Source of the DNA: Streptacidiphilus neutrinimicus
Lineage (GTDB): Bacteria; Actinomycetota; Actinomycetes; Streptomycetales; Streptomycetaceae
Assembly: GCF_000787815.1 (NCBI RefSeq)
Contig: NZ_BBPO01000037.1
Location: 1 to 50,534, forward strand
Reading direction: 5' to 3'
DNA length: 50,534 nt
Positions within the stretch are counted from its first letter, which is position 1. Every line of letters starts with the position of its first letter. Made by a program: the position numbers and the translations under genes. A model generated the notes under the pieces. It worked only from the letters and a program-made list of their open reading frames with translations. It was not told the DNA's origin and made no database searches. This document shows positions 9,733 to 25,463 of the stretch, piece by piece.

Positions 9733-10554
9733 TCAGGGCTTCCGGCCAAGCAGGATGCCTCCGAGGCATGTGACACGGAATGCCTTGTGCTCGGTGATCA
9801 CCGCGTCAGCCAGTTCCTCGGCCCTCATGACAGTGGTGTTGAAGGGGACTCCGAGTTGGTCTGCCCAAGCCTCGTAGGAAGCCAGGTGCGCGACGATCGG
9901 CTGGGACGTGGTGACCTCGATCAAGCCCGGCAATTCTTGGACGCGAACTTCCGAGAATGCGTTGCCGAGCAGGCGTGGTGCCGCTTCCATCGAGAAGCGC
10001 GAGCTGAGTGAGACGCGCGATGGCCCTTCAGGAAGCCCAAGTACGTCAGCGGCGGCTTGCCTCCAGAGCTGGTCGAGCTCGCGCTTGTCGGTGTCGCTGT
10101 TGGTGGAGGCGATCACGAGCCCGCCGGGCTTGAGGACGCGTGCCAGCTCATTGATCGCGGCCGGGATGTTGGGCACGTGGTAGAGCATGTGCATCGCCAG
10201 TACGGCGTCCATGGAGGCGTCGGCGAAGGGGAGCGCCTGGGCGTCGGCGACCACGACGGGGCGGGGGACGTCGGCGAGGATGCCGGCGGAGATATCCATC
10301 CCGATGACGCGGAGGTCGGGCCGGTCGTGGTGGAGGCGGGTGACGAACTTGCCGTTGCCGCAGCCGACGTCGAGGACGGTACCCGTGATCTCGGCGAGTT
10401 GCCCGACGACGATGCCGGGCAGGTCGTAGCGCGGCTGCTGCCACTGGTAGATCGACTGCCGTGCGGCGAGGTGCCGCTCGTCGGCGTAGGCGCTGGTGGC
10501 CAGACGGGCCTTATCGGTTACTGCGGCGTCCTGCTGTGCGGTGTTGCTCGTCAC
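9733..10554 (-). CDS. Class I SAM-dependent methyltransferase
   Basis: 273 residues with a textbook motif I (TVLDVGCGNGKFVTRL), motif II (RVIGMDISAGIL), motif III (VVVADAQALPFADASMDAVL) and motif IV-V (NELARVLKPGGLVIAST). This is the Methyltransf_11 layout of small-molecule methyltransferases. GTG at 10554 overlaps the stop of the XRE regulator (4-bp GTGA), so it is translationally coupled to that regulator and likely belongs to the same regulated locus as the peptide/oxygenase operon across the divergent promoter. It may modify the product of that operon; this is inference. Confidence 0.85.
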   Translation of the reverse strand: MTSNTAQQDAAVTDKARLATSAYADERHLAARQSIYQWQQPRYDLPGIVVGQLAEITGTVLDVGCGNGKFVTRLHHDRPDLRVIGMDISAGILADVPRPVVVADAQALPFADASMDAVLAMHMLYHVPNIPAAINELARVLKPGGLVIASTNSDTDKRELDQLWRQAAADVLGLPEGPSRVSLSSRFSMEAAPRLLGNAFSEVRVQELPGLIEVTTSQPIVAHLASYEAWADQLGVPFNTTVMRAEELADAVITEHKAFRVTCLGGILLGRKP

Positions 10555-11849
10555 GTGCTTGGCTCCGAGGTGGTCGTGAGGGCAGGGCGAGAGCAGGCTT
10601 CCTGGACATTCTTACGGAGGCTCAGGAGCGCGGGCGATCCAGCGAAGGGCTGCGAGGCGAGGCTGCTGTTCAGGGCCTGGAGGCGCTTGGCGATGCTGGC
10701 GGTGAGACGCTCTGGGCCAGCCTGCATCACGACGTTGAGCGCTTCCTGCGCGCCGTCGGTGTCTCGGCTGGCGAGGTGCGCCTTGGCGAGGTCGAGGTGG
10801 GCGGCAAGCAGGTCACCGGACGATTGGTCGGCCTCTGGAGCCGCTTGGTAGAGAGCGATGGCCAGATGCGATGCCTCGATCGCTTGGGGTACCCAGCGCG
10901 TGCTGTCGAGAGCGAGCAGCGCGGTGCCGGCGTAAGCCCACTGCTTGGCCTCGGGGAAGTCGAAGACGCCGGGTAGATCCACGACTGCCGAGCCGGTGCG
11001 GGCCTCAGCAGCGGACTCGATGGCGCGCAGCGTTGCGGCCTGGTCGCCGACCGCGGCACAGGCGCGGGCTTCGAGGCTGAGGAGGCGGGCGCCGACGGTG
11101 CCGCCGTCGCTGTACGGCATTCCTGCTCGGGCGAGGTCGGCGGCCCGGGCATAGTCACGCTGCCAGTAGGCGATCAGTGACTGGATGGAGCGGACCCAGG
11201 CGCGTAGCCCGTTGTGGCCCGCGTGTTCGGCGCAGAGCCAGGAGGTGCGAGCGTGAGTGGCGGCGACGGCGTAGTGGCCGAGGTCGAGGGCGATGTGGGT
11301 GGCGAGTCCGCCGAGGCGGCCTGCGGCGAGGTAGAGCCGGATGGTCTGCTGCGGGTGCTGGCGGCCCTGGAGGAGATCGAAGACGCTGCGGCGGAGGCAG
11401 CTGATCTCGTGGATCAGGTCGGGGACCGGCTTGCTGACGTACTCCACCGCGAGGCGGGCGATGTCCGCCTCCAACTGCTCCAGCAGGATGTCGTCGACGT
11501 TGGTGCTGCTGGCGAACCGCAGGAACAGGGCTGATTCGGCGGAGTCGGTCGCGATGGCGGCGACCATGTCCCGTGGGCTCGCGGATCGCCGAGCTTCGGG
11601 TAACTGCACGGGAACGGCGATAGGTCGGGCTGCCTCGGTGTCCGTTCCGTCGAGTAGGTCAGCGAGTTGATCGACGGTGACGTCGAGAGTCCCGGCCAGC
11701 TTGGGGCGCATCCACGGTTGGGGCGCGGCATGGCCGCTCTCCCACCGCCCGACGGTGGTCCGGTCGACCTCCATCGCCTCGGCCAGCGACTCCTGGGTGT
11801 GTCCGACCGCCTTGCGGCGCTCGATGAGCCTGGGCCTCCTGGTCGCCAT
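10551..11849 (-). CDS. XRE-family transcriptional regulator with TPR-like C-terminus
   Basis: 432 residues from ATG 11849, with a strong GGAGGA site just upstream; the frame is open to 12704 but the upstream part covers the divergent HATPase gene. The HTH is at the N-terminus (RKAVGHTQESLAEAMEVDRT, then TVGRWESGHAAPQPWMRPKL). The long C-terminal half is Ala/Leu-rich and helical, with TPR-like signals (ARDYARAADLARAG, DLAKAHLASRDTDGAQEAL). Streptomyces regulators of this build are often divergent from RsbW-like ATPases, as here (204-bp shared promoter region, 11850-12053). It is coupled downstream to the methyltransferase gene. Confidence 0.85.
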   Translation of the reverse strand: MATRRPRLIERRKAVGHTQESLAEAMEVDRTTVGRWESGHAAPQPWMRPKLAGTLDVTVDQLADLLDGTDTEAARPIAVPVQLPEARRSASPRDMVAAIATDSAESALFLRFASSTNVDDILLEQLEADIARLAVEYVSKPVPDLIHEISCLRRSVFDLLQGRQHPQQTIRLYLAAGRLGGLATHIALDLGHYAVAATHARTSWLCAEHAGHNGLRAWVRSIQSLIAYWQRDYARAADLARAGMPYSDGGTVGARLLSLEARACAAVGDQAATLRAIESAAEARTGSAVVDLPGVFDFPEAKQWAYAGTALLALDSTRWVPQAIEASHLAIALYQAAPEADQSSGDLLAAHLDLAKAHLASRDTDGAQEALNVVMQAGPERLTASIAKRLQALNSSLASQPFAGSPALLSLRKNVQEACSRPALTTTSEPST

Positions 11850-12053: not shown

Positions 12054-12548
12054 ATGTCCGTTCTTGCCCCTCCGCCGAGTCAGCTCGGTCCGGGCTTCCG
12101 CGTGGAGCCCGCCGCCGACGCGGTGTCCGCTGCGCGCCGGACGATCTCGGACCTGGTGATCGGGCGCGAGCTGCCGCTGACCGATGCCGCCCGCCGAGAC
12201 GTGGCCCTGCTCTCGGCGGAGGTCATCACCAACGCCGCCCGGCACACGGGTGGTGCCTGCGTGGTGCTGGTCCTGTGGACCGGTGAGCGCCTGCGCGTCG
12301 AGGTCACCGACACCGACCCCGAACTGCCCACACCGAGGGGCTTCGACCCCACCGTGCCGCACGGTCGCGGTCTGCTCCTGGTGGCGGCCCTCGCCGCCGA
12401 CTGGGGAGCCGAACCCGACCCCGCCGGCAAGCGGGTCTGGTTCGAGGTCGGCCCAGACTCGCGCCTCGACGGCGAGGAACGGCTCACCGCACTCGTGCGC
12501 GTGGCCGCGCCGATGGCCGCCGGCTTCACCCCGAAAGGCAGCACCTGA
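12054..12548 (+). CDS. RsbW-like ATP-binding protein (HATPase_c)
   Basis: 164 residues starting at ATG 12054 with AAAGG upstream. The GHKL N-box is VALLSAEVITNAARHTGG, the G1 box is LRVEVTDTDPELP, and the G2 box is HGRGLLLVAALAADWG. Such stand-alone HATPase domains act as anti-sigma-factor kinases or unknown partners in Streptomyces, where there are dozens per genome. It begins the rightward operon that leads to the small peptide gene after 177 bp and stands opposite the XRE regulator. A second XRE/HATPase pair occurs at 45705/47212 in this window. Confidence 0.85.
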   Translation: MSVLAPPPSQLGPGFRVEPAADAVSAARRTISDLVIGRELPLTDAARRDVALLSAEVITNAARHTGGACVVLVLWTGERLRVEVTDTDPELPTPRGFDPTVPHGRGLLLVAALAADWGAEPDPAGKRVWFEVGPDSRLDGEERLTALVRVAAPMAAGFTPKGST

Positions 12549-12725
12549 CCCCCGGCTCCTGGCCCGGTCGCGACGCGGGCCAGGGAACGGAGCCCGGCCC
12601 CGGCCTGGGTTCCCGCACCACGCGGTGGCTCCCGGTTTCACGCTCCCCCGCGACGGGGCCGCCGCACACAACCCGATGGACCGGGCAACCGGCCCGGTCC
12701 GCACTTCTCACGCAGGAGGTCTGCG

Positions 12726-12869
12726 ATGCACGAGCACCTCACCAGCGCCACCGAGCAGGAGAGCGACGGCCTGCTCATCGCCCGCACCCGGGTCGCCGCC
12801 GCCCGCTCGCGTGCGGCCATGCAGGAGTCCGACGGCGGCTCCACCGGCGTCAGCGACAGCAACGACTGA
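12726..12869 (+). CDS. 47-residue peptide, candidate precursor
   Basis: ATG 12726 has a perfect AGGAGGT site at 12714-12720, the strongest in the neighbourhood, and a TGA at 12867-12869, only 11 bp before the oxygenase gene. The product begins MHEHLTSATEQESDGLL, has an Arg/Ala-rich middle (IARTRVAAARSRAAM) and ends in a Gly/Ser/Asp-rich tail (ESDGGSTGVSDSND). It has no Cys and no export signal. Position, ribosome site and composition fit a modified-peptide precursor with an N-terminal leader and Ser/Thr/Asp-rich core, but it could also be a small regulatory protein. No known precursor family is recognised. Confidence 0.7.
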   Translation: MHEHLTSATEQESDGLLIARTRVAAARSRAAMQESDGGSTGVSDSND

Positions 12870-12880
12870 CGGCTGATCCG

Positions 12881-14068
12881 ATGACCACCGAGCCCTTCTC
12901 GGTGGCCCAGCGCCTGGGCGGGGACGACTTCCTCGCCCAGGCGTTCGGCCGCAGCTACCTGGTCGCGCGCGGCGAAGCCGCGTCCGTCGCCTCTCTGATC
13001 AGCTGGGACGACCTGAACTCGATCCTGGCCCGGCACCGGCTCGACGCCCCACGGTTCCGCCTCGCCGCCGACGGAGAGCCCGTCCCCGCCTACCGCTACA
13101 CCCAGCCCGTCGTCACCCGCCGCAGCACCGTCTGGCAGCGCCTGCAGCCCGACGCCCTGCACCAGCAACTGGCCGCCGGAGCGACGCTGGTACTCGACGC
13201 CGTCGACGAGCTCCACCCCGGTCTGCACCACCTCGCCGCCCAGCTGGAGCGCTGGCTGCGCACCTCCTGCCAGATCAACCTCTACGCCTCCTGGACCGGC
13301 ACTGAGGGCTTCGGCACCCACTGGGACGACCACGACGTGGTCGTCGTCCAGCTCGATGGCGCCAAGCGCTGGCGTCTGTACGGCCCCACCCGCACCGCCC
13401 CCATGCACCGTGACGTCGAGGCGCCCGAGCCCCCGCCGTCCGAGCCTGTCGCGGACCTGGTCCTGTCCGCCGGCGATGTCCTCTACCTCCCACGTGGCTG
13501 GTGGCACGCGGTGGCCGCGTCCGAGGGCCAGCACTCCCTCCACGTCACCTGCGGCCTGCAGTCCCACAGCGGAGCCGACCTGATCACCTGGCTGTCCGAG
13601 ACGCTCCGCGCCCACGAGGGAGTCCGGGCAGAGGTGCCCCGCCTGGCTGGTGACGCGGACCAGCGGGCCTTCGTCGACGAGTTGCGCAAGCTGCTCCTGG
13701 AGGAGCTGGACAGTCCCGACCTCGTCGCCCGCTTTGCAGCGGCCCGGGATGCGACCGAGTCCCCGCGGCTTGCACCCTCTCTCCCTTTCGTCAACGGGGC
13801 CCCGCCGCAGCCGGATCTGCCGGTCCGCCTGCTGCCGTCGCGCCCGGCCCTGTCCACGGACAGCGATGGGAACGTCCACCTGGTCGCCGGGGGAGAGGAC
13901 TGGACGTTCGCCGCCCCCGTGCTGCCGCTCCTGGAGCAGCTCGCCGATGGCGGCCAGCATCGCCTCGCCCTCCTGGCCGACCGCGCAGGCCTCACCCTCA
14001 CCCAGGCGGCCTCCGTGGTCACCGAGCTCGTCAAGGGCAACGCCGCCGCCCTCGGGGGCAACAGGTGA
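12881..14068 (+). CDS. JmjC/cupin-type Fe(II)/2-oxoglutarate oxygenase
   Basis: 395 residues. The cupin_4/JmjC core is clear: the iron ligands H147-x-D149 in GTHWDDHDVVVVQLDGAKRW, and the distal His209 in GDVLYLPRGWWHAV. The LYGPT strand and the WxGTEGFG entry resemble the ribosomal-oxygenase (RoxA/YcfD-like) branch, whose known members hydroxylate residues of proteins. The last ~150 residues are a helical/winged-helix-like extension (QLADGGQHRLALLADRAGLT). ATG 12881 is 11 bp after the peptide gene and the stop overlaps the next start, so the oxygenase is likely to act on the peptide. That pairing is inferred. Confidence 0.85.
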   Translation: MTTEPFSVAQRLGGDDFLAQAFGRSYLVARGEAASVASLISWDDLNSILARHRLDAPRFRLAADGEPVPAYRYTQPVVTRRSTVWQRLQPDALHQQLAAGATLVLDAVDELHPGLHHLAAQLERWLRTSCQINLYASWTGTEGFGTHWDDHDVVVVQLDGAKRWRLYGPTRTAPMHRDVEAPEPPPSEPVADLVLSAGDVLYLPRGWWHAVAASEGQHSLHVTCGLQSHSGADLITWLSETLRAHEGVRAEVPRLAGDADQRAFVDELRKLLLEELDSPDLVARFAAARDATESPRLAPSLPFVNGAPPQPDLPVRLLPSRPALSTDSDGNVHLVAGGEDWTFAAPVLPLLEQLADGGQHRLALLADRAGLTLTQAASVVTELVKGNAAALGGNR

Positions 14069-14961
14069 GAACTCGCATGGGGCTGGGTACCTACCGCTGC
14101 CCCGACGTCCGCCGGGCCGCCTCGATGGCGGCCCGGTGTGGCGCCGACTGGCTCGACACTGCCCCCAACTACGCCGCAGGCCAAGCAGAGACAGCCCTCG
14201 CCCCCGTCCTGGCCCGGCACTCCCGCGTCCGGGTCTCCACCAAGGTCGGCTTCATCGCTGAAACCGACCGGTCCGTCGCCGTCGCGGCAGGGGTCCTCAC
14301 CGAGGTAGAAGCCACGGAAGGCCACAGCCTCAAGCCGGACTATCTGCGCTGGCAGATCGCACGCAGCCGCCGCCATCTCGGCCGGATGCCCGACCTTGTC
14401 TTCCTCCACAACCCCGAGCACCACTGCCCACCCGAGCACGTCAACGAGCTGCTGTACACGGCGTTCACCGTGCTGGAGGAAGCCTGCGCCGACGGTCAAC
14501 TGCGTGCCTACGGCGTCGCCACCTGGAGCGGGTTCAGCGGCGGCCTGTTCGACATCCCCACCCTCCTGGGCGCCGCCTTCCGCGCTGGGGGAGCCGACCA
14601 CCGCCTGCGTGCCGTCCAACTCCCGCTCTCCATCGTGCGCCTCGCCCCCATCGCCCAGGCGCTCGAAGGACGCGGTGTCCTCGCTGACGCCCGCGCCGCG
14701 GGCCTGGCCGTCTTCGCGTCCGCGCCGCTGCACGGCGGCCAGGTCCCCGAGCTGTTCACCCCGGAGCTGATCGACCTGATCGCGCCGGGAGGCACTCCGG
14801 CCCAGGCAGCGCTCGCCGTGATCGGGTCCGCGCCGGGCGTGCGCCGAGTCCTCATCAGCACCGGCAGCCAGGAACACTGGCACCAGGCCGTAACCGCGCT
14901 CGACGGCCCTGTGTTGAGCAGGGACCAACTCCAGAGGATCACGGATGTACTCGGAACCTGA
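14065..14961 (+). CDS. Aldo/keto reductase
   Basis: 298 residues from GTG 14065 (overlapping the oxygenase stop by 4 bp); ATG 14077 (MGLGTYRC) is an alternative. The full AKR tetrad is present: Asp31 and Tyr36 in WLDTAPNYAAG, Lys60 in VSTKVGF, and His115 in LVFLHNPEH. The C-terminal cofactor region (VIGSAPGVRRVLISTGSQEH) fits NADP(H) binding. It would reduce a carbonyl or aldehyde, possibly one made by the preceding oxygenase. Its stop overlaps the next gene by 17 bp, so the operon is tight. Confidence 0.87.
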   Translation: MRTRMGLGTYRCPDVRRAASMAARCGADWLDTAPNYAAGQAETALAPVLARHSRVRVSTKVGFIAETDRSVAVAAGVLTEVEATEGHSLKPDYLRWQIARSRRHLGRMPDLVFLHNPEHHCPPEHVNELLYTAFTVLEEACADGQLRAYGVATWSGFSGGLFDIPTLLGAAFRAGGADHRLRAVQLPLSIVRLAPIAQALEGRGVLADARAAGLAVFASAPLHGGQVPELFTPELIDLIAPGGTPAQAALAVIGSAPGVRRVLISTGSQEHWHQAVTALDGPVLSRDQLQRITDVLGT

Positions 14962-15799
14962 CACCGCCACTGCCGACCGCATGCGCAAAGCCCACGCCAA
15001 CGCCGCGCGGACCTTCAGAGCCCGAGTCGTCGGCGAGGGTGAATCATGGGGCTGGCGCGGACGCACCCTCAGCAGGCGCGTCACCACCGAGGAAGGCGAG
15101 CGCTGGCTCCGCCTCGTCTCGGCACCGGCCGACAAGGCCGGCGGCAAGCTATGGGAGGGCCCCACCGAGGCGGAACTCGCAATGCCCGCGAGCGTCCCCC
15201 GCCCGCGACTACGCGCCTCTTCCGCCTGGACGGACGACACGGACGCCTACCTGGCCGAGCTCTATGACGTCGTCGCGGACACGACGATCGCCACGGACAG
15301 CCCCGTCCTGCGCTCTGCTCCGCGCCTCTCGGGAGAGTGGTGGGTCGGGCTGATGATCGCGCTCGACGCGGTCCGTGACGTCCCCACCGCCCGAGTCGCG
15401 CTGCGCCAGGAGTACCTGGAGCGGGCCATGCCGGAGTACCTGGGTTTCATGCCCGGTCAGGACGGAGTCGTCTGGGCCGCCGCTCACGGTGACCTGCACT
15501 GGGCCAATCTGACCGCTCCAGGGCTGCACATCCTCGACTGGGAGGGATGGGGCATGGCACCTGCGGGCTACGACGCCGCCATGCTCCACACCTACAGCCT
15601 CCTCGTCCCCGACGTTGCGGCGGACGTCCGGCACCACCTGTCCAACCAGCTCGACACGCCTTCGGGTCGCTTCGCCGAACTCGCGGTGATCACCCAGCTT
15701 CTGCAGACCAACAGGAGAGGTGACAACCTCGACCTCGCAGAGCCCCTCCGAGCCCGGCTGGCGATCCTGCGAGAGGCAGAGGACGTCGCGCTGGGGTAA
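14945..15799 (+). CDS. APH-family phosphotransferase
   Basis: 284 residues. The kinase-like catalytic loop is intact: His181-Gly-Asp183 to Asn188 (AAHGDLHWANL), then the metal-binding Asp198 in LHILDWEGWGMAPAGYD. The N-lobe is short and weakly conserved. APH-fold enzymes phosphorylate small molecules, and relatives act on Ser/Thr in class V lanthipeptide and thioamitide pathways. The start ATG 14945 lies within the end of the aldo/keto reductase gene. In this operon a peptide Ser/Thr or a small molecule could be the acceptor; the sequence does not decide. Confidence 0.82.
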   Translation: MYSEPDTATADRMRKAHANAARTFRARVVGEGESWGWRGRTLSRRVTTEEGERWLRLVSAPADKAGGKLWEGPTEAELAMPASVPRPRLRASSAWTDDTDAYLAELYDVVADTTIATDSPVLRSAPRLSGEWWVGLMIALDAVRDVPTARVALRQEYLERAMPEYLGFMPGQDGVVWAAAHGDLHWANLTAPGLHILDWEGWGMAPAGYDAAMLHTYSLLVPDVAADVRHHLSNQLDTPSGRFAELAVITQLLQTNRRGDNLDLAEPLRARLAILREAEDVALG

Positions 15800-15801
15800 C
15801 C

Positions 15802-16554
15802 GTGTCCAGCCCGCTGTCCGGCCGGGCCGGACGTGCACGTACTCTCTCGGGCATGCGCCACCAGTACCACCCGGCTGAGCCCGTTGCCGAGGGCCTGTGC
15901 CCGTCCATATGTAAGGCCGACCTGGATGCGGTGCTCGCGGTGGGCTGGGTTGACCTTGGTCACCTCGCTCCTGGCGAGCGGCGCTTGGCCTCGCGTTTTT
16001 ACGAGACGGCGGCTGTCGACCGCGCGCGTCTCCGGGCCGTGCAGGAGGTCGCGCGCTCCTCATATGAGGAGTGGACCGGGAGTCGCCCGCATCCGATGGG
16101 GTCGTCGTACGCGGGGACTGCGCTCGGGTGCTCGGATATCGATCTGTACGCCCCGATGCCCGAGGGCTGCGGGAGCCTGGGAGAGCTGGAGACGTTGCTG
16201 GCGGGGAGGGCGGTCTACCGCAAGACCCGCCCGGGGCCGACTGGTGAGGACCGGCATCTGTTCAGCTACCACGAGGGCGGAACCAGGGTAGACCTCAACT
16301 TCGTTCCGCCCTCCGACTACCGGCTCGCGCTGGCGGTCGTCCACGAGATCCGCAGGGGCCTGACCCGCGAGGACCGCGTCGCGCACACCTGGGTCAAGCA
16401 CCTGCTCCAGGAGCGCGCGGCCGACGACAGCTACGACGCTTGGAAGACCGCCATGCGTCTGCGGTCCTCGGCGACGCTTCGGGCGCTGATGGCGACCGGC
16501 GCTGCTGACAGCCCGGGGTGGCTCCAGGACTGCGCTCCCCTTGGTTGTGGGTGA
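15802..16554 (+). CDS. Nucleotidyltransferase-fold protein
   Basis: About 250 residues from GTG 15802, two bases after the previous stop; ATG 15853 (MRHQYHPAEP) is a possible later start. The polymerase-beta-type motif is clear: MGSSYAGTALGCSDIDLYAP with two catalytic Asp residues and a third at GGTRVDLNFVPP. A helical C-terminus follows (EDRVAHTWVKHLLQER). Members transfer NMP to small molecules, proteins or RNA. It ends the peptide/oxygenase operon before a strong terminator at 16761-16799. It might be part of the pathway or a self-protection enzyme; neither is shown. Confidence 0.75.
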   Translation: MSSPLSGRAGRARTLSGMRHQYHPAEPVAEGLCPSICKADLDAVLAVGWVDLGHLAPGERRLASRFYETAAVDRARLRAVQEVARSSYEEWTGSRPHPMGSSYAGTALGCSDIDLYAPMPEGCGSLGELETLLAGRAVYRKTRPGPTGEDRHLFSYHEGGTRVDLNFVPPSDYRLALAVVHEIRRGLTREDRVAHTWVKHLLQERAADDSYDAWKTAMRLRSSATLRALMATGAADSPGWLQDCAPLGCG

Positions 16555-17572: not shown

Positions 17573-19237
17573 TCATCGGTGACGGTTGCGGTCCGGGGTG
17601 ATGCCCGGCGTCCGTGCACTGGACGCCGGCGTGCTGGGCCTAGTGGTGAGGCGGCTTCGGGTGAGGGCGCTGTGGGCGCGGCGGTGGTGCTGCTGGGCTT
17701 GCTGGTCGTGGATCCGCCACAGGAGCAGCGCGGCCGGGTTGTCGGCCTGGCCGAGGTCCTTTCGGTCGTCGTCCCCGAGGGCAACTGATCCGCTGCCGCT
17801 TGCGTCGGCGTGGTGGAGGGCGGTTGCCAGGGCGGGCCAGTGGGGGTCGGTGGTGATCCGCTCGGCCAGCCCGGGGGCATGGGCGTGGATCCAGGTCTGC
17901 CAGCGGGCGTTGACGCGCGGGTCGGGGGCCTGGCGCGTGAGGTGGGCCAGCGGCTGGGCGGCGGTCTGCTGGTAGGCGGCGCGCAGGTGGATGAGGGTCT
18001 GACGGGCGGCGTGTTCCTGCTGCTCGTGGCGGTGGGCCTGGTGCCAGCGAGCGGCGGCGAAGACGGCGTCGATGAGCACGCAGAGGAGCCAGGTGACGGC
18101 GTCGCCGGTGCCGTGGGTGTGGGTGAGCTGGTAGGCGAGTTCGCGTGTCGCTCGGCCGGCCTGGTAGTCGGCCTCCTTCCTGGAGCGGGTGGCGCGTTCG
18201 AACACGACGGTGGCGGCACGAAGTTCGTTGCGCACTGCCGCTGGTGCGGTGTGGGTGGTGGCGTCGAGGAGGGCGCCGAGGGCGTGTATGTGGTCGGCGG
18301 CCTCCTGGTCGGTGGCGTGGTCGAGTGTGCGCGGGTAGTGGTCGAGATGGCGGGCAGCGTGCCGCCACGGGTCGCCGGGCTGGTAGCCGCCTACGAAGTG
18401 CTCGGCCGCCGCGAGGCGGGTGAGGATCTTCGGGAGGGACAGGTCGGGAGCGAGGCGGCTGCCGGAGAACCACACCGGTTCGCGGCCGGGCTCGGGTTGG
18501 TGGGCGAAGGTGATGCCGCGGATGTCGCCGGACGGCTTGCGCGCCACGTTCGCGAGCACGCCCTGGACGGCGAGGTGGGCGACCAGCTCGTCCACCGAGG
18601 CGCTGGCCGTGAGGGCTTCGCGGACTGCGGTGCGCAGCCGGACGCTCGCGGCAGGCCGGTTCTGCCGGGTGGCCTTGAAGTGCTCCTTGTGTCCTGGGCG
18701 TTTTGCCGCGGTGCCGTCGCCGCGCCGCACCAACTGGAGGCCGAGGTCTTGCTCGATGCGGTCGACCTCGCGTCGCATCTCCTTGATCCAGTACTTGGGT
18801 TGTTCGGGGGCGCGGCCGTCCTGGCGGACCAGGCCGACCAGGAGGTGGATGTGGTCATCCGCGTGCCGCACCGCGATCCACCGCGGGCCTTTGGTGTCGC
18901 CGTCGACCAGTAGGCCGCCGGCCGTCAGGACGCGTCGGGCAACGCTCGCCCACTCGGCGTCGGTGAGCTGCCTGTCGCCGGGGGCGGTGCGGATGGGGAT
19001 GTGCAGGTACTTCACCTTCGGTCGCTGGTCTGGGCGCAGGGCCTTGATGGGGATGTCGAGTCGGGCGGCGAGCTGGCCGACCGTGTGCTGGTCGGGGTGG
19101 CGGCCGGGGTCTGGGGCGCGGTCGATCCAGGCTGCGACCAGGTGCGGGTCGGTGTGCTCGTTGGAGCGGCCCGGCCCGAAGAGGTAAGCCACGGTGTTGT
19201 GGGCGTAGCTGCGGGTGGAGATGGGCTTGACGATCAA
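17573..19237 (-). CDS. Relaxase/mobilization nuclease
   Basis: 554 residues. The N-terminal ~200 form a conjugative relaxase domain: a candidate catalytic tyrosine in TRSYAHNTVAYLFGPGR (Tyr11 or Tyr18) and the metal-binding histidine triad at 125/129/131 (AVRHADDHIHLLVGLV). The rest is Ala/His/Gln-rich and helical, likely contacts with DNA or a coupling protein. Relaxases nick the plasmid or element at oriT for single-strand transfer; many Streptomyces elements instead use TraB double-strand transfer, so a relaxase here points to mobilization by a helper. It starts 12 bp after the MobC-like stop. Confidence 0.85.
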   Translation of the reverse strand: MIVKPISTRSYAHNTVAYLFGPGRSNEHTDPHLVAAWIDRAPDPGRHPDQHTVGQLAARLDIPIKALRPDQRPKVKYLHIPIRTAPGDRQLTDAEWASVARRVLTAGGLLVDGDTKGPRWIAVRHADDHIHLLVGLVRQDGRAPEQPKYWIKEMRREVDRIEQDLGLQLVRRGDGTAAKRPGHKEHFKATRQNRPAASVRLRTAVREALTASASVDELVAHLAVQGVLANVARKPSGDIRGITFAHQPEPGREPVWFSGSRLAPDLSLPKILTRLAAAEHFVGGYQPGDPWRHAARHLDHYPRTLDHATDQEAADHIHALGALLDATTHTAPAAVRNELRAATVVFERATRSRKEADYQAGRATRELAYQLTHTHGTGDAVTWLLCVLIDAVFAAARWHQAHRHEQQEHAARQTLIHLRAAYQQTAAQPLAHLTRQAPDPRVNARWQTWIHAHAPGLAERITTDPHWPALATALHHADASGSGSVALGDDDRKDLGQADNPAALLLWRIHDQQAQQHHRRAHSALTRSRLTTRPSTPASSARTPGITPDRNRHR

Positions 19238-24137: not shown

Positions 24138-25463
24138 TTGGCGAACGTCTACGACCGCTGGCACAAGTCCCGTGCCAGCAAGGGGGATCAGCAGTGCCCC
24201 GAGCACAAGGGCAAGGTTGCCTCCTCGGAGCACGGTGTCGGCAAGCGCTGGCAGGTCCGCTACCGCGACCCCGCCGGCGAGCAGCGCAAGGAGAACTTCG
24301 AGCGAAAGGCCGACGCCGAACGCCGCGCGGCCGAGCTGCAGAGCAGCCTCGACGTCGGCACCTACGTCGACCCGGCCGCCGCCAAGGTCACGCTGGGCTC
24401 CTACGCCCAGCAGTGGCTCGCCTCGAACACGGCAGGGCCGACGACTGGCCTCCGGTACGAGGGCGTCGTCCGCAACCACATCGAGGCGCGGCTGGGCCAT
24501 CACGAGCTGCGCGCGCTCAACCAGCCCTCGCTCATCCGGGCATGGATCAAGGAGCTGCAGGAGGTGCCCCTCGCTGCGTCAACGATCCTGGGCGTGGGCG
24601 ACGTGCTCGCCGCCATCCTGGACGCCGCCGTTGACGACGGCAGGATGCCGCGCAATCCGTGCAAGGCGAAGACCGTCAAGTGGCCGACGACTCCCAAGAA
24701 GCCCGTCGTGCCGTGGACTCGCGAGCGCGTCGCCGCGGTGATCGAGGGGCTGCCCGACCGCTTCCAGGCCGGCGGCAAGGTCGGCATCGGCTGCGGCCTG
24801 CGCCAGGGTGAGATCTTCGCCCTGGCCGACGACAGCATCGACTTCAAGGGCGGCTGGATCCACGTCAACGCGCAGATACGTTTCGTCGGCAAGACCATGG
24901 TCTTCGCGCTCCCGAAAGGGCAGAAGATCCGCTCGGTCCCTATGTCACGCGGTCTGGCTCTCGCGCTCAAGGCGCACATGAAGGCGTTCCCGCCGGTGGA
25001 GGTCACGCTGCCGTGGGACGAGGCCGAGGGCGACCCGAGGACGCTGCGGCTGCTCTTCGTCGACCCGAAGGGCAACGCCTACAACCGAAGCGTGTTCAAC
25101 CAGGGGGACTGGAAGCGTGCTCTGGTCCACGCCGGGGTGATCCCGCCCCGGACCACCGGCTCGCAGTATTTCCAGGCGGCCCCGGAGGACGGCATGCATG
25201 CCCTCCGTCACACCTACGCCTCGGCCCAGCTCGAAGGCGGGACGAACATCAAGGCCCTGGCCGTCTACCTCGGCCACTCGGACCCCGGCTTCACCCTCCG
25301 CACCTACACGCACCTCATGCCCAGCAGTGAAGGGCGGAGCCGTGACGCGGCCGACGCCTTCCTGCTCGGGACTGCGGGAGCCACGAGCCCGACGGGCGAG
25401 ACGCAGGGCACAGCCGACCTCGCTTCCGAAGCCGTGTGCCCTCAATGTGCCCTGGCGGCCTGA
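24138..25463 (+). CDS. Tyrosine site-specific integrase
   Basis: 441 residues from TTG 24138 with GAAGGA upstream. An AP2-like/arm-binding N-terminus (KRWQVRYRDPAGEQRKENFE) precedes the SAM-like core-binding domain (VTLGSYAQQWLASNT). The catalytic residues are all present: Arg222 in CGLRQGEIFALADD, His354-x-x-Arg357 in HALRHTYASAQ, His380 in YLGHSDPGF, and the nucleophile Tyr390 in RTYTHLMPS. It reads toward attR, whose core starts 70 bp after its stop. It catalyses integration into the 3' end of the gene at 25530-26030. Confidence 0.93.
   Translation: MANVYDRWHKSRASKGDQQCPEHKGKVASSEHGVGKRWQVRYRDPAGEQRKENFERKADAERRAAELQSSLDVGTYVDPAAAKVTLGSYAQQWLASNTAGPTTGLRYEGVVRNHIEARLGHHELRALNQPSLIRAWIKELQEVPLAASTILGVGDVLAAILDAAVDDGRMPRNPCKAKTVKWPTTPKKPVVPWTRERVAAVIEGLPDRFQAGGKVGIGCGLRQGEIFALADDSIDFKGGWIHVNAQIRFVGKTMVFALPKGQKIRSVPMSRGLALALKAHMKAFPPVEVTLPWDEAEGDPRTLRLLFVDPKGNAYNRSVFNQGDWKRALVHAGVIPPRTTGSQYFQAAPEDGMHALRHTYASAQLEGGTNIKALAVYLGHSDPGFTLRTYTHLMPSSEGRSRDAADAFLLGTAGATSPTGETQGTADLASEAVCPQCALAA

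Follow-up and report, generated by a model that had tools for sequence, protein, structure and literature searches.

A conserved short peptide gene linked to a JmjC oxygenase, an aldo/keto reductase and an APH-fold kinase in Streptacidiphilus neutrinimicus: a probable peptide-modifying operon

Gene organization of the locus

We analysed a 50,534-nucleotide stretch of DNA from Streptacidiphilus neutrinimicus (contig NZ_BBPO01000037.1 of assembly GCF_000787815.1), hereafter the window, in which the gene of a 47-residue peptide is followed on the plus strand by genes for a JmjC-type oxygenase, an aldo/keto reductase (AKR) and a kinase-like protein with the APH fold. The peptide open reading frame (ORF; 12726-12869, ATG start) has a GC content at third codon positions (GC3) of 0.98, and a ribosome-binding site, AGGAGGT (12714-12720), lies five bases 5' of its ATG. 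Eleven bases separate its stop (12869) from the ATG (12881) of the next gene (12881-14068), which encodes a ROX-like Fe(II)/2-oxoglutarate (2OG) oxygenase of family PF08007 (JmjC_2, 7.9e-31) with a C-terminal beta-rich/three-helix domain (model residues 314-391). The AKR gene (14065-14961, with an alternative start at ATG 14077; Aldo_ket_red, 3.9e-18), whose product has the full D-Y-K-H set, overlaps the oxygenase gene by 4 bases and the APH-fold kinase-like gene (14945-15799; HGD..N..D motifs) by 17 bases, and a gap of 2 bases then leads to a nucleotidyltransferase-like gene (15802-16554; sub-threshold MTPAP-like match, 0.017). The initial annotation had described a 47-residue ORF with a perfect AGGAGGT site 11 bp before an oxygenase gene, followed by genes that overlap or touch, and this layout is real, with coordinates that agree.

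Conservation of the short peptide

The JmjC protein was scanned against one genome per species, which gave 65 related loci, and an intact homologous short ORF lies upstream of the JmjC gene in 56 of them. The remaining nine are broken loci, JmjC fragments or distant relatives: a deletion fuses the peptide frame into JmjC in L055, L051 is rearranged and retains ...GKGDGND, L059 is frame-shifted, JmjC is interrupted in L062, L066 and L068 are JmjC fragments, and L061, L063 and L065 are distant JmjC relatives (38-45% identity) without an intact short ORF.

In the alignment of the peptides a variable N-terminus is followed by a leader block, GLLxARxxIxAARSR, and by an acidic C-terminal core with the consensus SDGGSTG[RVK][ST]D[GST]ND or SDNTGGKSDMNDT. 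The corresponding segments of the window peptide are GLLIARTRVAAARSR (residues 15-29; 12768-12812, plus strand) and SDGGSTGVSDSND (residues 35-47; 12828-12866, plus strand). Residues L16, D36, G41, D44, N46 and D47 are invariant (35/35 alignment rows), while the tail beyond ND varies among loci (ND, NDT, NDS, NDN, NDNRIG). Cys occurs in one of 57 peptides, outside the core, and Cys, Tyr, Trp, His and Phe are absent from the last 14 residues of all 57. A search of the organism's own genome with the family profile returned this ORF at 1.7e-20 and the next best at 0.07, the ORF being itself a row of the profile, which scores comparably in unrelated genomes. NCBIfam, PHROGs and PADLOC gave nothing informative for the peptide, the PHROGs matches being of unknown function only.

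These comparisons show that the 47-residue ORF is a real gene, which encodes a conserved precursor-like peptide in which two conserved blocks, leader and acidic C-terminus, can be discerned; we infer from the alignment that the second is the core. The initial annotation had named as decisive against it either homologous loci with no short ORF before the oxygenase or a peptide conserved merely by chance, and what we found is the ORF in most loci and strong conservation of the peptide.

A nearly invariant C-terminus next to a variable N-terminal part is easier to reconcile with a small, fixed product than with an antibiotic that diversifies. In pearlin-type pathways the modified C-terminal residues of a scaffold peptide are cut off as a small molecule, and the peptide might likewise be a carrier. 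We consider this unlikely: conservation extends over 13 residues instead of being confined to one or two at the end, loci differ in what follows ND, and among the conserved neighbours we saw neither a peptide aminoacyl-tRNA ligase nor a LanB-like gene.

Linkage of the peptide to the JmjC gene

The peptide profile and a JmjC search were then applied to 391 genomes of the order Streptomycetales. The profile gave 46 matches at E<=1.5e-8 in 44 genomes, all of which adjoin JmjC: 43 lie at JmjC matches of at least 429 bits, two (G308, G136) at JmjC pieces and one (G388) at a broken gene. Conversely, the peptide accompanies 43 of the 45 JmjC matches that reach 429 bits, and both of those without it are damaged, G020 being rearranged while keeping ...GKGDGND and G156 having a JmjC without its N-terminus; under 429 bits there is a score gap, below which other JmjC families appear. 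Across the phylum, the peptide profile gave three true-looking matches in 296 genomes, all within the organism's own family, and seven further matches (E 0.0016-0.0095) that look like chance, and of 292 genomes searched with the JmjC profile none but the genomes of the three true-looking matches scored at clade level. The coupling of short ORF and oxygenase proposed by the initial annotation is thus well supported. No JmjC match at 1e-10 was found among 50,697 phage records, which, together with the PHROGs result, led us to reject a phage origin.

It could be argued that the enzyme folds alone need no peptide and that the nearest solved structures are ribosomal oxygenases, so that the short ORF would stand by chance before an unrelated oxidoreductase operon or a ribosomal-oxygenase system. 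The retention of ORF, position and sequence at most loci, and the peptide beside nearly every JmjC gene of the clade, already contradict this reading, which we rejected and find hardly credible.

Predicted enzymes

The catalytic residues said to be intact in the window are also conserved across loci: H147, D149 and H209 of JmjC in 61/61, D27, Y32, K56 and H111 of the AKR in 45/45 (numbering from ATG 14077), and H181, D183 and D198 of the kinase in 53/53, with N188 in 52/53. The JmjC model (pLDDT 90.1) matches NO66, MINA53 and YcfD from end to end and, as in ROX proteins, joins a JmjC fold with facial triad to a C-terminal winged helix. Identity to the ribosomal oxygenases NO66, MINA53 and YcfD/RoxA is about 20%, and because the gene is linked to a peptide, a role as ribosomal-protein hydroxylase is disfavoured; most likely, the substrate is the linked peptide. 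At the C-terminus of the model, strands (314-343) precede helices (345-385), and this strand-then-three-helix order is the one reported in PMC12710340 for RRE-like domains (RRE, recognition element of ribosomally synthesized and post-translationally modified peptides, RiPPs) fused to PF08007. When peptide and JmjC of locus L005 were folded as one chain by reading through the stop, peptide residues 14-26 reached a pLDDT of at least 50, with a strand at 17-22, and the core stayed below 50, so that the leader motif was better ordered than the rest of the peptide.

Other JmjC genes were also encountered. Two adjacent JmjC-like genes lie elsewhere in the same genome (L002 and L003; contig C172, 37084-38636), with 34% and 26% identity. 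One group (L134, L135, L136) has a conserved upstream 53-residue ORF (MADNTARNTEEQEFPEVEVKV...FGDSVK) and downstream genes that, judged by eye, look like those of an arginase-type hydrolase, a radical SAM protein and another cupin; in another (L143, L144) the upstream ORF is built of GTPGVHDGGADGG-type repeats.

A second peptide family

A diverged JmjC group, with about 30% identity to the window protein, is preceded by another short peptide. Like the first family, this second one has the leader layout LL..VE.L....R, the pattern in common with the window leader motif being LL..V...L......R, and a core that starts with SD (SDPTGTSAGDDGENRDGLN and SDNAGSSGDAPWPGGDGNL are examples). Its peptides were matched in 42 of the 391 order genomes at E<=0.001, including a weak match in G278, where the region inspected showed no JmjC. 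JmjC, AKR and kinase matches occur in 17 of 20 examined genomes having a JmjC match, the other three being without one or two of the set; matches in G350 and G303 are shortened, and the kinase gene often runs in the opposite direction. Either peptide family is present in about 80 of the 391 genomes, with no double counting of the six that appear in both lists. The gene neighbourhoods show that the set of peptide, JmjC, AKR and kinase, as assigned from these matches, persists through two diverged peptide families, and in both an encoded precursor stands beside putative modifying enzymes and is conserved jointly with them, as is expected of a RiPP pathway.

The aldo/keto reductase and the residue before Asp-44

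JmjC was matched in 117 locus rows. Nine of these had no peptide call and eight were set aside, either because they lie at a contig or locus end (L058, L064, L067, L115, L080) or because JmjC is decayed and both AKR and kinase are missing (L113, L120, L121), which left 100 scorable rows; L122 was dropped for having no JmjC. The residue before Asp-44 is Ser or Thr in 84/84 rows with an AKR and Gly in 16/16 rows without one. The rows include duplicates from two collections and correspond to 80 distinct peptide ends, 67 with an AKR (56 Ser, 11 Thr) and 13 without (Gly). Nine plasmid loci that were opened all agree, six having an AKR and Ser, and three Gly and no AKR.

Composition of the gene set and flanking genes

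Neighbouring genes of 66 loci (the 65 related ones and the window) were called with a simple home-made gene finder and clustered. The AKR family is present in 49 of the 66 loci and the APH-fold kinase family in 56, which shows that, by family assignment, the AKR is usual and the kinase nearly always present with peptide and JmjC. The nucleotidyltransferase recurs in one of the 65 related loci (L004, the nearest relative) and was rejected as a cluster member. Of the initial proposal of a peptide-modifying operon, the coupling of a peptide gene to JmjC, AKR and kinase, which recur together, is supported, and the membership of the nucleotidyltransferase is not.

The flanks carry the further genes expected from the initial annotation, a divergent NsdA-type XRE/TPR regulator (10551-11849, minus strand; NsdA_fam_reg, 3.4e-28) and, in stop-start overlap with it, an accessory class I methyltransferase (9733-10554, minus strand; Methyltransf_11, 8.7e-23). 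The start at 12054 formerly given to the operon belongs instead to a separate upstream gene for an anti-sigma-like HATPase_c_2 protein (12054-12548, plus strand; 2.9e-9). The XRE family was found in 24/66 loci, with other regulators elsewhere, the HATPase family in 26/66, not always upstream, and the methyltransferase family in 16/66; the last is missing from most loci and hence optional. The HATPase and XRE genes are flanking regulators, which vary from one locus to another. In eight loci in all, including L015-L018, L020, L033 and L057, a gene that by eye resembles 5-formyltetrahydrofolate cyclo-ligase replaces the methyltransferase beside the XRE gene.

With regulator genes at many loci, and with JmjC hydroxylases of the same fold acting, according to the titles of published reports, on proteins in regulation and translation, the peptide might act unprocessed, as a regulator or sensor that signals oxygen, 2-oxoglutarate or redox state to the XRE/HATPase regulators through its hydroxylation and phosphorylation. 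This seems quite unlikely to us, since the regulators change from locus to locus around a constant set of peptide, JmjC, AKR and kinase, and the distribution is accessory and plasmid-borne.

Mobile setting and plasmids

In the window, a relaxase gene (17573-19237; 9.5e-6) and a phage-type integrase gene (24138-25463; 1.3e-13) lie near the operon, in agreement with the mobile DNA setting noted initially. The JmjC protein matches 72 plasmid records at 1e-20, 38 of which are from Streptomyces. Plasmid pSV2 (NC_004934) carries, in this order, genes annotated as hypothetical protein (47 residues), cupin, aldo/keto reductase and hypothetical protein, and the plasmid records opened either label the peptide a hypothetical protein or leave it unannotated.

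The presence on these Streptomyces plasmids and beside mobilisation genes in the window would suit a module for plasmid maintenance, or one resembling a toxin-antitoxin pair, with kinase or oxygenase neutralising the peptide. However, the PADLOC models gave no match for the peptide, JmjC, AKR, kinase, HATPase or nucleotidyltransferase, and for the XRE gene only weak RmrA/capH matches in its HTH part; many genomes carry the cluster on the chromosome; and the core is acidic, soluble and without a hydrophobic stretch. Such a module is, in our estimate, very improbable, and a known anti-phage defence system was rejected on the same PADLOC result.

On mobilisable E. coli plasmids of about 7.9 kb (L199, NZ_CP023830.1, 376-3601), an ABC transporter gene and a gene for a 232-residue hypothetical protein are followed by a distant JmjC/cupin gene with 31.6% identity over 55%; 25 Escherichia records match.

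Proposed pathway

The best explanation of the locus is, in our view, a RiPP-type biosynthetic operon that would yield a modified acidic peptide, with a probability of roughly 0.78. The leader motif would be bound by the RRE-like/winged-helix C-terminal domain of the JmjC protein, and the oxygenase would hydroxylate an invariant Asp or Asn of the core (D36, D44, N46 or D47). The AKR would act at or beside Ser/Thr-43, and the APH-fold kinase would phosphorylate a side-chain hydroxyl. Since the conserved neighbours include neither a protease nor a transporter gene, leader removal would presumably fall to a host peptidase. The expected product is a short, acidic peptide, about 13 residues long, whose synthesis would be controlled by the divergent XRE/TPR regulator.

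Several observations weigh against this explanation. The 66-locus clustering with the home-made gene finder revealed no conserved transporter or protease beside the set. Pfam gave the kinase an APH match of 1.6e-3, under the family cut-off, and the C-terminal domains of JmjC a sub-threshold PqqD (0.089) or ROXA_wH match in one of four domains scanned; the leader ordering in the L005 read-through model comes from a prediction without a control. For a RiPP, the core shows unusually high conservation, and the codon tests are weak, with dN<dS in 9/12 pairs, one of them misaligned, and pN/pS values, near saturation, of 0.98 for the N-terminus, 0.63 for the leader and 0.64 for the core. On the tree, the AKR/Gly change falls on one branch with full support (12 rows without and 71 with an AKR), so that the association of the AKR with Ser/Thr is one event, and therefore a strong hint rather than independent evidence or statistical proof. 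In addition, the decayed loci L113, L120 and L121 keep Ser/Thr without AKR or kinase, and the second peptide family has an AKR yet Gly before later Asp residues, which means that the association is not simply transferable.

Relation to known systems

According to PMC12707348 and PMC12257519, the JmjC Fe(II)/2OG enzymes BipG and BpmG, encoded with a RiPP precursor, hydroxylate peptide Orn in biphenomycin biosynthesis; the window likewise has a JmjC Fe(II)/2OG gene next to a precursor gene. The biphenomycin clusters, as those texts describe them, contain an MNIO, a B12-radical SAM enzyme, an arginase, a TldD protease and an FRF-type core, whereas here an AKR and an APH-like kinase accompany an Asp/Asn/Gly/Ser core that lacks Phe, and the conserved neighbours in the 66 loci include no MNIO, B12-radical SAM enzyme or arginase.

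APH-family kinases (LanK/CaoK, TvaC) act on RiPP precursors in class V lanthipeptides and thioamitides of Streptomyces (PMC9486802, PMC7794033), and the window cluster shares the kinase type with them. According to these sources the pathways need a HopA1-like lyase and Cys; with no HopA1 match in the window's whole genome and no core Cys in 57 peptides, lanthipeptide-type dehydration was rejected. An alpha-ketoglutarate dioxygenase that macrocyclizes a RiPP precursor (Xia et al. 2025, as cited in PMC12636437) cross-links Cys and Tyr, neither of which occurs in the last 14 residues of the 57 peptides, and resembles our system in being an Fe/2OG enzyme.

PMC12710340 describes RRE-like beta3-alpha3 domains fused to PF08007 JmjC, with bacterial homologues in RiPP-like contexts; for these homologues its section 6 names neither a gene set nor a peptide family or product. 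The general idea of RRE-JmjC proteins in RiPP contexts is thus in print, and the window cluster was not found in that section. The literature searched holds no description of the peptide-JmjC-AKR-kinase set, in line with the initial annotation, which knew of no pathway with the set it listed; subscription papers and supplements lay outside the search, and a prior description is therefore possible.

Significance

Most RiPP searches take known marker enzymes as their starting point, and none of the usual ones is present in the set described here. The set may, tentatively and at clearly less than even odds, represent a new RiPP class, in which core Asp/Asn would be hydroxylated by a ROX-like JmjC enzyme that carries its own leader-binding domain, the neighbouring Ser/Thr altered by an AKR (for instance to a carbonyl) and the product phosphorylated by an APH-fold kinase, and which would be found in about one fifth of Streptomycetales genomes and on many Streptomyces plasmids. 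In that case, the acidic peptides could be metal-binding or bear a reactive carbonyl. An AKR acting on a ribosomal peptide would, to our knowledge, be without precedent. If the RiPP-type operon is real, it would add a compact, common and plasmid-borne pathway with a known precursor, so that enzyme order and chemistry are open to simple co-expression tests. It would also provide a clear peptide substrate for the ROX-like JmjC fold, and could reveal AKR and APH-kinase chemistry on one ribosomal peptide.

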